From positions 1 to 40,999 of the forward strand of contig JAUVXR010000024.1 of NCBI GenBank assembly GCA_030603495.1: a stretch of DNA of 40,999 bases, in the 5' to 3' direction. A program made the position numbers and the translations under genes. Positions 4,117-26,505 of the stretch are shown here, piece by piece. The notes under the pieces are model-generated. The model was not told where the DNA came from. It was given only the letters and a program-made list of their open reading frames with translations, and searched no databases. This DNA is from a bacterium. Its GTDB lineage: Bacteria > Armatimonadota > Zipacnadia > Zipacnadales > Zipacnadaceae. Position 1 is the first letter of the stretch; each line of letters starts with the position of its first letter.

Positions 4117-5340
4117 ATGAAGAGTGCATTTGGTTTGATAGCGGTTGTATGTCTACTGGTGCTGGTGGTGGGATGCCGTCGAACCTCGAGAGTGGTTTCG
4201 CCGGCCCCACCCACGCCTACTGCCAGGGCTGCCCCGTCCCCGCCCGTCAGCAGGAGCGCCGCGACGACGACGCCAGATGCCGAGGAGCAGGAGGCGCTGC
4301 GGCGAGGGGCCGCTGACGTGGCCCAGAGCTTCCTCGATGTCTTACAGGCAGAAAACTGGGCGAAGGCAATCGAGTTCTTCTGTGCTGACTTTCGGAAGGC
4401 GCATCGTCAGGAGTTGCTTGATGGCAGTCTGTTGCAGAAAGGTCGTGGGAAACAGAGCTCTGTGTCGGTCTTCTTCGCTGGACAGGCCGGTGAGTATGCG
4501 ACAATGCGCGGTGAGCGCGCCTGGGTTGGAGTGAGTGCTAGCAGTGGTGGCCGCCACAGCAAGATCGGGCTGGCTACCTTGGAATTGGTTAGAGAGGACG
4601 GGGAGTGGAAGGTCCTTCGCTATCCGCCCTCTTATGATGTGTCCTACGCCCGAAGAGCTGGTTATGACGGGGAGGCGGCGGGGCGCTGGTTCAGGGGTAT
4701 GCTCAGCGATGGGGAGTTCACGGAAGAGGAACAGGCGGAGATTGCCCAGGTGCTGGATAGGTACTACGCCGTAGTTGTCCAGATGGAGTCGCAGGCGGAG
4801 GGCCGACCCCTGCCGCCGCCAATGTACCGTCCGGCCACGATGGAGTGGCTAACGAAGAGGGCCACGCACCTCGAAGAGGCACGACCTGGGTTCAAGCTAG
4901 CCAGTATTGCCTTCTGGCCGGAGCCGGACGAAGACATTACTACTGTAGCGCAGGCGCTGGCCGAGCAGGCGATTCGCCAGGTTCATAAAGACCTGGCGGC
5001 GATCAAAGATGAATACCCCGAACTGGCCGACTTTGGCCAAGAGAATGTCAACTTCAGTGACACTAGTCTCTTCTATGCGCCCAATCCATCTGAGCCAGGC
5101 CAAAAGGGCTCTGTGCCCACGATCAGCGTCTCCATTGGTACGCCGTATTTAGGAGTGACCCAGGCTACCTTCCCACAGCGAATCTTCTTGCCGCGGCAGA
5201 AGCTCGCAGTAGGTCGCCATGCGTGGGTCACCGACGAGCAGCTTGCCAAGTGTGTGAAGGAGACGATTGAGAAGAACGTTGTGCCGCTGATTCGCTTTGA
5301 GAAGATTCTCGGCGGGGAGCCGGTGTACGATAACTGGTAA
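4117..5340 (+). CDS. Predicted lipoprotein of unknown function
   Basis: A 407-residue protein. The N-terminus MKSAFGLIAVVC...LVVGC is a lipoprotein signal with a lipobox ending in Cys, followed by a low-complexity Pro/Ala/Ser/Thr linker, so it is probably anchored to a membrane on the periplasmic side. Residues about 60-160 (SFLDVLQAENWAKAIEFF...LELVREDGEWKVLRY) resemble the small alpha+beta fold of DUF4878/SnoaL/NTF2-like domains, which bind ligands or partners. The C-terminal half is not recognised. I chose ATG at 4117 over the in-frame TTG at 4114 because GAGGTGG then sits at normal spacing. It precedes the TPR protein on the same strand but is separated from it by 228 bases. Confidence 0.8.
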   Translation: MKSAFGLIAVVCLLVLVVGCRRTSRVVSPAPPTPTARAAPSPPVSRSAATTTPDAEEQEALRRGAADVAQSFLDVLQAENWAKAIEFFCADFRKAHRQELLDGSLLQKGRGKQSSVSVFFAGQAGEYATMRGERAWVGVSASSGGRHSKIGLATLELVREDGEWKVLRYPPSYDVSYARRAGYDGEAAGRWFRGMLSDGEFTEEEQAEIAQVLDRYYAVVVQMESQAEGRPLPPPMYRPATMEWLTKRATHLEEARPGFKLASIAFWPEPDEDITTVAQALAEQAIRQVHKDLAAIKDEYPELADFGQENVNFSDTSLFYAPNPSEPGQKGSVPTISVSIGTPYLGVTQATFPQRIFLPRQKLAVGRHAWVTDEQLAKCVKETIEKNVVPLIRFEKILGGEPVYDNW

Positions 5341-5390
5341 TGCCTATGCCAATTGCGGCTGACTTCGCACCGAACCCAACCGGCTCCCCG
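5313..5390. repeat. 12-bp inverted repeat across the lipoprotein stop codon
   Basis: CGGGGAGCCGGT (5313-5324) and its exact reverse complement ACCGGCTCCCCG (5379-5390) enclose a 54-base loop containing the stop codon. No T-run follows, so it is not a classical intrinsic terminator. It could protect the 3' end of the mRNA or act as a processing site. Confidence 0.6.
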
Positions 5391-25070: not shown

Positions 25071-25160
25071 GCCGGAGTGGCGGAATTGGTAGACGCACCA
25101 GACTCAAAATCTGGCGGGGCCTTAAACCCCGTGCCGGTTCGAATCCGGCCTCCGGCACCA
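25071..25160 (+). tRNA. tRNA-Leu (anticodon CAA)
   Basis: A complete class II tRNA with encoded CCA end. Acceptor arms GCCGGAG (25071-25077) and CTCCGGC (25150-25156) pair perfectly. The anticodon stem CCAGA/TCTGG (98-102 and 110-114 past 25000) encloses loop CTCAAAA with anticodon CAA at 25105-25107. A long variable arm follows, then the T arm CCGG-TTCGAAT-CCGG. It reads UUG leucine codons. It has its own consensus-like promoter. Confidence 0.98.
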
Positions 25161-25612
25161 CCGCGCTGATTCTCCGCTATTACTGACAAAACTGACAGTA
25201 CGTATCCCTGACATGCCCCCTCGCCTTCCAGGCCGAGTGCTAAGCGCTCGTGCCCCCCGGGATGTACCCATTATGATACAAGAACGGGGGAATACTGGCA
25301 AGCCCCGCGCTGATAAGAGATGTCTGTACGCTCTATCAGCAGGCAACGACTCACCGAGCGTTGGGGTAGGGTGTCTTCCGATACAATGGAGGCGGTAGCA
25401 GAGCGCCTGCGGATCGTACTGGGATTGTAGGCGAACGCCCTCTCCGCAGCTTACCCCGCGCAAGTAATAGGTACGGCAGACATTGAGCTGACCGTCAAGC
25501 AGGCGGGTGTGAGCAGGATAACCGGGGGCTGTGGCGAAGGGCATAATGCATAGAAACCGGCGAGGTGGGTATACTAAAATTGGCTGCGCTGGGTTTAACT
25601 AGCATTAAGGCC
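25161..25612. other. Non-coding or decayed stretch between tRNA-Leu and the NYN gene
   Basis: About 450 bases without a credible gene. No exact second copy of the tRNA 3' end was seen in the window, so an integration event is not shown. A 22-base segment at 25485-25506 (GAGCTGACC...GCAGGCGG) recurs in similar form at 26451-26472, on the far side of the NYN gene. The region has shorter, AT-richer patches than the housekeeping genes and looks like eroded accessory DNA. Confidence 0.4.
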
Positions 25613-25641
25613 TTGACAAGTTCAACGGATTATCGTATAAT
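25613..25641 (+). promoter_or_regulatory. Full-consensus sigma-70 promoter of the NYN gene
   Basis: TTGACA (25613-25618), 17-base spacer, TATAAT (25636-25641): both hexamers and the spacing match the consensus exactly. It is the strongest promoter seen in the window. The start would be near 25648, giving a leader of about 79 bases. Confidence 0.85.
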
Positions 25642-25651
25642 TACTGTACAA

Positions 25652-25714
25652 CTCCCCCCGGAGCTTCGGCGACGGGGAGCGAAGGCCTGACGAAAGTCGG
25701 GCCTTCTGCGTTTT
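25652..25714 (+). promoter_or_regulatory. Structured leader of the NYN gene, attenuator-like
   Basis: Hairpin 1: CTCCCC (25652-25657) pairs with GGGGAG (25674-25679), with a smaller CCG/CGG stem possible inside. Hairpin 2: an 11-base stem (25681-25691 with 25696-25706, one G-T pair) closed by a GAAA tetraloop. TTTT follows at 25711-25714 after TGCG. The second hairpin plus T-run resembles a weak intrinsic terminator placed before the start codon. It may be an attenuator, an RNA-binding site or a self-target of the nuclease; I do not recognise a named riboswitch. Confidence 0.65.
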
Positions 25715-25726
25715 CACTGGGCTGAG

Positions 25727-26338
25727 ATGACAACCAACGTCTATATTGACGGGTTTAACCTGTACTATGGCGCAGTAAAGAGTACCCCTTACCGCTGGCT
25801 GAACCTCGCGGAACTGTGTCGCCTTCTCCTACCCACGGATCAGATCAACCGAATTCAATACTTCACTGCGCTGGTGACGGGTCTTCCCAGAGACCCAGAC
25901 TCACCAAACCGACAATCGTTGTACCTGCGAGCATTGGAGACCATTCCGAACCTCGAAATCTTCCGTGGACACTTTCGGTCTCATGAGCGCTGGCGGCCAT
26001 TGGCGGACGGGTCAGGACGTGTTAAAATTCGGGAGACCACCGAGAAAGGTTCGGACGTGGCTTTGGGCGCTCACCTAGTGCATGATGCTCACATGTGCGA
26101 CTATGACACAGCGGTCGTTGTGTCTAACGATAGTGATCTGATTCCACCGATTCGTATCGTTCGTCAGGATATTGGGAAAAAGGTTGGGCTTCTCTGTCCT
26201 TACAAACGCTTTAGCACAGAACATGCAAAGGAATTCGATTTCTTCAAACTGATTCGGCCCGGAGTTCTTCGGGCAAGCCAGTTTCCAGACGTGCTCACAG
26301 ATTCAAAAGGCGATTTCCATAAGCCAGCATCTTGGTAG
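25727..26338 (+). CDS. NYN-domain (PIN-like) predicted ribonuclease
   Basis: 203 residues. The N-terminal NVYIDGFNLYYG (Asp8, Asn11), the central TTEKGSDVAL (Asp110) and VVVSNDSDLIP (Asp135, Asp137) are the acidic metal-binding positions of NYN/DUF88 (LabA-like) nucleases, which cut RNA with a PIN-like fold. The C-terminal tail is not recognised. Codon use and composition look AT-richer than the surrounding genes, and decayed sequence lies on both sides, next to a tRNA gene, so transfer is likely (inference). A perfect promoter and a two-hairpin leader precede it, but the Shine-Dalgarno site is weak (GGGCTGAG). No antitoxin-like gene is intact beside it. Confidence 0.85.
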   Translation: MTTNVYIDGFNLYYGAVKSTPYRWLNLAELCRLLLPTDQINRIQYFTALVTGLPRDPDSPNRQSLYLRALETIPNLEIFRGHFRSHERWRPLADGSGRVKIRETTEKGSDVALGAHLVHDAHMCDYDTAVVVSNDSDLIPPIRIVRQDIGKKVGLLCPYKRFSTEHAKEFDFFKLIRPGVLRASQFPDVLTDSKGDFHKPASW

Positions 26339-26441
26339 GTAGGCCCCGCTGTCAGAAGGTGAAATCAAAATAGTAGTTGAAGATGCGCCAATAGCCAGCC
26401 TAAAGAGATGCTCCGTTCTTGCCTGCCCCTCGTAGTCTCGC

Positions 26442-26505
26442 GAATACCTCGAGCTGACCACACAGCAGGCGGCGCAAGAACTCGGGCTGGGGCACTGCCA
26501 GCTAC
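26442..26505 (+). pseudogene. Possible remnant of an excisionase-like HTH
   Basis: One frame reads EYLELTTQQAAQELGLGHCQLL, which resembles the 'LTTQQAAELLGVSR' start of small MerR/excisionase-type DNA-binding domains. A stop codon lies just upstream and the frame runs into the converging accA gene. It could be debris of a regulator once linked to the NYN gene. The match is short and may be chance. Confidence 0.22.

Follow-up and report, generated by a model that had tools for sequence, protein, structure and literature searches.

To our knowledge, very few folds are known among the protein toxins that are neutralised by RNA, namely the ToxN fold and HEPN in AbiF. The Weinberg 2017 survey reportedly tied further structured RNAs, the DUF3800 RNA motifs and the abiF motif, to putative nuclease genes. 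Type III toxin-antitoxin (TA) systems (ToxIN, CptIN, TenpIN, AbiQ) reside on plasmids, prophages and chromosomes. The anatomical criteria by which they are found are a promoter, a structured RNA in a repeat array, a terminator and an RNase gene (PMC8860590). In Clostridioides difficile, the abiF RNA (RCd22) neutralises the AbiF protein both in cis and in trans; here, a short ncRNA with its own promoter and terminator and with repeated stem-loops lies upstream of the gene for a HEPN-like (Abi_2) defence RNase (PMC12373285). Nucleases with an NYN fold and three active-site aspartates, such as the CRISPR-associated NYN protein of Bacteroides fragilis (PMC11346440), VPA0982 (2qip) and the NYN domain of MARF1, are not known to be linked to a dedicated two-hairpin RNA gene. 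The NYN families PADLOC HEC-09 and PHROG 7929 are treated as single-protein families, and we came across no description of an RNA that partners them.

We analysed a window of 40,999 nucleotides (the whole stretch of DNA under study) from an Armatimonadota genome, in which an NYN gene is combined with such an RNA. On the forward strand, a promoter of the sigma-70 type with exact consensus (25613-25641; -35 TTGACA at 25613-25618, a spacer of 17 bases, -10 TATAAT at 25636-25641) is followed by a two-hairpin RNA of ~67 nt that closes with a U-tract, and then by an NYN-domain open reading frame (ORF). The promoter lies directly upstream of the RNA, and would serve the NYN gene by read-through. Of 50 RNA copies on either strand, orphans included, 38 matched the promoter at 9/12 positions or more (shuffles 14%) and 27 at 10/12 or more (shuffles 2%). 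A first-pass annotation, made from the letters of the DNA, had pointed to the exact TTGACA-17-TATAAT, to an 11-bp hairpin capped by GAAA and followed by TTTT, and to the NYN-domain ORF, all of which were recovered in our analysis.

The RNA gene extends from 25648 to 25715 on the plus strand and scores 80.9 bits with covariance model R1. Hairpin 1 (25656-25677) is formed by pairing of 25656-25664 with 25669-25677 around a UUCG loop, with an internal tandem G.A. The first-pass annotation was right about the presence of this hairpin, while its register, CTCCCC/GGGGAG, gives way to one shifted by two bases that the relatives favour (CCCCG, tandem G.A/A.G, GC-UUCG-GC, CGGGG). Hairpin 2 and the U-tract (25681-25714) constitute an intrinsic terminator between the RNA and the ORF: 11 bp (25681-25691 with 25696-25706) enclose the GAAA loop, and TGCG and TTTT (25711-25714) follow. 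The 3' flank of hairpin 2 has the consensus TGCTTTTT in 36 copies, and hairpin 1 has conserved AxCCC and GC flanks. The region 25648-25735 folds with -42.2 kcal/mol (z -3.85), and 0 of 200 shuffles folded as well. In folds modelled by minimum free energy (MFE), the RNA forms two simple hairpins.

The first-pass annotation had made its case depend on conservation and covariation of the hairpins upstream of homologous NYN genes, and both were found. Upstream of relatives with 38-75% protein identity, the order of promoter, hairpin 1, hairpin 2 and ORF recurs, with differing stem sequences. In an unfitted MAFFT alignment of eleven leaders of the window type, 89.5% of the cells pair, and in 16 of the 20 base pairs both partners have changed. 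The covariation score of these leaders is 0.657, compared to 0.249 in shuffles (0 of 500 reached 0.657), and it drops to 0.14 or less when the registers are slid. Hairpin 2 has both-side changes in 11 of 11 pairs (alignment A2, unfitted MAFFT), and hairpin 1 in 5 of 9 pairs in A2 and 9 of 9 in A5. When 36 copies were fitted to the model all 20 pairs covaried, a count that is leaning by construction. A strict scan with a grammar of two hairpins plus U-tract matched 39 of 71 loci and 6 of 1420 shuffles. At the curated threshold there was no Rfam match for the RNA of the window or for the RNAs of 20 relatives, which agrees with the annotation's remark that it knew of no named leader RNA that fits; AgrB, at 25.5 bits against a threshold of 40, was taken as chance. 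Searched as a DNA repeat in its own genome, the leader was found at its own locus only. It is near certain that this two-hairpin stretch, equipped with a promoter and a terminator of its own, is an RNA gene.

A covariance search upstream of other NYN genes, as the first-pass annotation had suggested, showed that the RNA and the NYN family form a near-obligate pair. The RNA was detected by covariance model or strict scan in 54 of 54 testable loci. To be testable, a locus had to be distinct, to score 140 bits or more for the family and to have 100 bases or more of upstream sequence. Of these loci, 53 appear in the combined covariance-model and scan listing, and L072 was detected by the strict scan. 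Loci with the RNA are found in Armatimonadota, Leptospira, Proteobacteria, Actinobacteria and Acidobacteria, on chromosomes, plasmids and proviruses. The NYN family itself is present in 27 of 291 Armatimonadota genomes, on 448 plasmid records (distant relatives counted in) and in IMG/VR proviruses, so that the module is both mobile and patchy in its distribution.

In the same 291 genomes, R1 produced 11 matches of at least 38 bits, each covering the full length of the model, hairpin 1 included. Of these, eight adjoin an NYN ORF and the other three are the copies L154, L155 and L156 that are described below. Matches below about 32 bits were mostly generic terminators and were left unused. These weak matches, together with the terminator nature of hairpin 2, are what one would expect if the hairpins were ordinary terminator or spacer elements, kept because a mobile cassette shares its promoter and terminator. 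This explanation is very improbable, given that hairpin 1 covaries as well, that its flanks are conserved, and that the stronger phylum matches include hairpin 1 and lie mostly beside NYN.

The ORF (25727-26338, plus strand) encodes 203 amino acids. The protein matches Pfam NYN (PF01936) with 29.8 bits (gathering cut-off 24.2; 1e-6), and both PADLOC HEC-09 (6.5e-40, residues 5-203 of 203 on profile positions 6-202 of 203) and PHROG 7929 (phrog_7929, 2.2e-64) over its full length. An AlphaFold model with a mean pLDDT of 93 was compared by Foldseek, and the closest folds were VPA0982 (2qip) and MARF1 NYN (top matches 2qip, 5yaa and 6fdl). The residues D8, D110, D135 and D137 do not vary among 22 relatives, and three of these aspartates (D8, D110, D135) correspond to the active-site Asp of tested NYN nucleases (PMC11346440). 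The protein is thus a putative NYN/PIN-like metal-dependent endoribonuclease, as predicted from its modelled fold, and a candidate toxin. In a genomic study of Pseudomonas, HEC-09 correlated with phage susceptibility and not with resistance (PMC12447246).

Comparison of the window ORF with that of a sister genome (L003:3001-3612) showed 85.3, 85.8 and 84.8% identity at the three codon positions and 90% in the noncoding flanks. The dN/dS was about 0.58. Since the rates are nearly equal at all codon positions, protein constraint on the window copy may be weak, and the sequences would be compatible either with fast protein change or with such weak constraint.

The placement of the RNA relative to the gene is informative about how it acts. 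In a Mycobacterium prophage (L023, R1 48.9 bits) and a Paenarthrobacter plasmid (L025, 41.8 bits), the RNA lies downstream of NYN on the opposite strand in convergent orientation, and no leader is present upstream of NYN; R1 had been built without these two loci. In a provirus (L047, 58.6 bits), the RNA lies upstream and is divergent from NYN. All three copies have their own TTGACA ~17 bases before a -10-like hexamer, at the usual short distance to hairpin 1. By eye, a two-hairpin RNA with a TTGACA also appears to be divergent upstream of NYN in a Thermus plasmid (L041) and an Armatimonadota relative (L100).

These layouts bear on the idea of a cis-acting leader, in which hairpin 2 acts as attenuator and on which the nuclease, or a ligand, acts in autoregulation. 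The first-pass annotation had favoured attenuation or cutting of the leader by the nuclease. Such a leader is expected always to lie 5' of its gene and to be co-transcribed with it. Most loci do have the RNA close to the promoter with a terminator before the ORF, so that some control of this kind is probable there, and hairpin 2 probably still attenuates transcription where RNA and gene run in the same direction. The strong promoter and the terminator-like hairpin of the annotation stand, whereas its leader acting purely in cis does not: the opposite-strand copies with their own promoters in L023, L025 and L047 exclude it. Orphan RNAs, and the repetition of hairpin 1, for which a simple attenuator has no need, argue in the same direction. 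As the sole function, cis action is largely refuted, and we consider a cis-acting leader an improbable account of the RNA. The opposite-strand placement, together with tandem repeats and the survival of RNA copies without nuclease, means that the RNA must act in trans.

The convergent RNAs of L023 and L025 point at the 3' end of the gene, as they would if the NYN mRNA were under antisense control of a type I-like kind. In both loci the RNA terminator is located at or before the stop codon, and there is consequently almost no overlap between RNA and mRNA; moreover, the common layout has the RNA upstream on the same strand as the gene. Antisense control is therefore hardly credible.

Most copies, including that in the window, hold a single RNA unit after the -10 box, while tandem units occur in several relatives. 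Hairpin 1 is repeated in L029, L030 and L104-L106; in 4.6-kb mobilisable plasmids of E. coli and Klebsiella it is present four or five times, with a number that varies between plasmids, in units of 29-33 nt (a 33-nt period by Tandem Repeats Finder) that are followed by a perfect terminator and then the ORF. L062 has two full units. In L160, which was found by an RNA-only pattern, TTGACA-17-GATAAT precedes three diverged two-hairpin units that fold alike with different stem sequences, and the NYN gene is distant. This array was recognised by reading and folding, because Tandem Repeats Finder (the units are too diverged) and R2 both miss it. Among the matches of the RNA-only pattern searches, five of nine from the first pattern were judged by eye to be chance matches inside coding sequence (for example 'KPWSFGEGL'), as were both matches of the second pattern (L168 and L169).

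Other RNA copies are found without a functional partner. L154 is an orphan RNA with an intact promoter and no NYN gene. In L155, a second copy (5288-5350, minus strand) is situated 3.2 kb from the NYN module and adjoins no NYN gene; its promoter and both stems are intact and its U-tract has decayed. In L156 the RNA stands beside an NYN frame that is broken by a frameshift. These three copies indicate that the RNA is retained longer than the nuclease, as would be expected if the RNA is an antidote.

A further copy is carried by a virus. In a 47.7-kb virus record that may be a fragment, and that was picked up by the RNA-only pattern which also led to L160, a promoter-like site and a well-formed RNA copy (L163:7880-7968, minus strand; R2 33.5 bits, E 6.6e-9) precede the tail completion, tail terminator and major tail genes, and the record holds no NYN gene. 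There is a precedent in the pseudo-ToxI of a Pectobacterium phage that escapes ToxIN. By analogy, the RNA of L163 is possibly a phage mimic of the antitoxin, a reading that is only suggestive since it concerns a single case.

Taken together, we consider it fairly probable that the locus is a two-part TA-like module resembling type III, with the NYN nuclease as toxin and the RNA as antitoxin. We infer this role for the RNA from a layout that conforms to the anatomical criteria for type III systems and from the precedent of AbiF. In such a module, the strong constitutive promoter would yield an RNA of ~67 nt, with transcription stopping at the intrinsic terminator of the RNA (hairpin 2 and U-tract), and a minority of the transcripts would read through into the endoribonuclease gene, with hairpin 2 setting the ratio of RNA to nuclease. 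The abundant RNA would bind the nuclease, occupy or block its active site and so silence it, and the nuclease may process arrays of repeated units into single ones. Upon failure of transcription or loss of the element, for instance by phage infection or plasmid loss, the short-lived RNA would vanish and the nuclease would be set free to cut cellular or phage RNA.

Several observations may count against the RNA being an antitoxin: the mostly single unit per copy, the plain hairpins of the MFE folds, the opposite-strand layouts and the possibly weak constraint on the window ORF. An RNA with an activating or guiding effect on the nuclease would also agree with the data. In the main rival explanation, the RNA serves the nuclease as a positive cofactor or guide (for folding, targeting or activation), and the pair is an anti-phage effector instead of a toxin and its antidote. 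The near-obligate pairing and the independence of orientation fit it equally well, the protein belongs to the PADLOC defence candidate family HEC-09, and the arrays recall guide arrays. For a pure cofactor, however, it would be odd that the RNA is kept at loci whose nuclease has been lost or disrupted, or that one copy sits in a phage tail cluster; a terminator that allows much RNA and little protein better suits a neutraliser, and the stems vary freely while a variable spacer-like segment is absent. We thus regard a cofactor or guide as unlikely, and prefer the antitoxin reading.

As in type III systems, the module combines a promoter, a structured RNA (tandem in some copies), an intrinsic terminator and an endoribonuclease gene, and it likewise occurs on plasmids, prophages and chromosomes. 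The layout departs from the type III criteria in the repeat array (PMC8860590), which is present in only some relatives. We did not file the module in the known type III families because the fold of its putative toxin, an NYN/PIN-like metal nuclease, does not match ToxN, the RNA has usually one unit, and the MFE folds give two plain hairpins, in which no pseudoknot was seen. In addition, the RNA here can be on the opposite strand, upstream or downstream, and we know of no such layouts for type III systems. AbiF shares with the NYN pair the short promoter-terminator RNA with repeated stem-loops ahead of an RNase gene, whereas its RNA motif and its protein fold are unrelated. The DUF3800 and abiF motifs involve other protein families, and no Rfam model matched the two-hairpin RNA. 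An NYN-RNA pairing or an NYN type III system was not found described in the literature searched, and none is known to us from Blower 2012 or Weinberg 2017.

There is about an even chance that the module represents a new and widespread class, in which an NYN ribonuclease is held by a two-hairpin RNA on either strand and either side of the gene. The class would extend over no fewer than five phyla, include plasmid and provirus copies, and have a mimic in a phage that carries the RNA alone. If true, NYN would be the third toxin fold under RNA neutralisation, and HEC-09, annotated as a lone gene and an orphan defence candidate, would become a two-part system. Screens in which the ORF is cloned apart from its RNA, or in which nothing but the ORF is deleted, may then misread HEC-09. 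The analysis yields a ready covariance model, a natural version on E. coli plasmids and a possible phage counter-measure.

The window copy lies in an exchangeable island (25328-26458, plus strand) between tRNA-Leu(CAA) (25071-25160, plus strand; ARAGORN) and accA. The island is 87% identical over 1136 bases to L003, and dS between the window and this sister genome is 0.24 for the NYN ORF and 1.06 for accA, which together indicate a more recent movement of the island than of the genes beside it. In L003 and L015/L122, too, a tRNA-Leu(CAA) lies close to the NYN module. The kilobase at 25-26 kb has a GC content of 0.552 against about 0.61, and is the most AT-rich near by. The AT-richer composition and tRNA neighbour noted in the first-pass annotation were thus confirmed, and its suggestion of an acquired, toxin-like module was supported. 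At the syntenic spot of genome G006 (L123:3354-4224), between a common 99-bp flank and accA, there is a gene with a SocA/Panacea antitoxin domain and an ORF of 141 amino acids that matched no known family; a TA-type gene takes the place of the NYN module here, which marks the spot as one where TA-type modules are exchanged. A separate NYN-RNA module of G006 is located close to the tRNA-Leu(CAA) of that genome.

Distant plasmid relatives of the NYN family from Klebsiella, Xanthomonas, Thiothrix, Cupriavidus and Pseudomonas (L032, L033, L034, L035, L036, L037 and L039) have a different structured RNA upstream of the NYN ORF, and the model gave no match in those from Klebsiella, Xanthomonas, Pseudomonas and Thiothrix. 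In several of these relatives, a (G)CGATTAAGTT or CCATTAAGTT element is located before a strong terminator, with two copies in Klebsiella.
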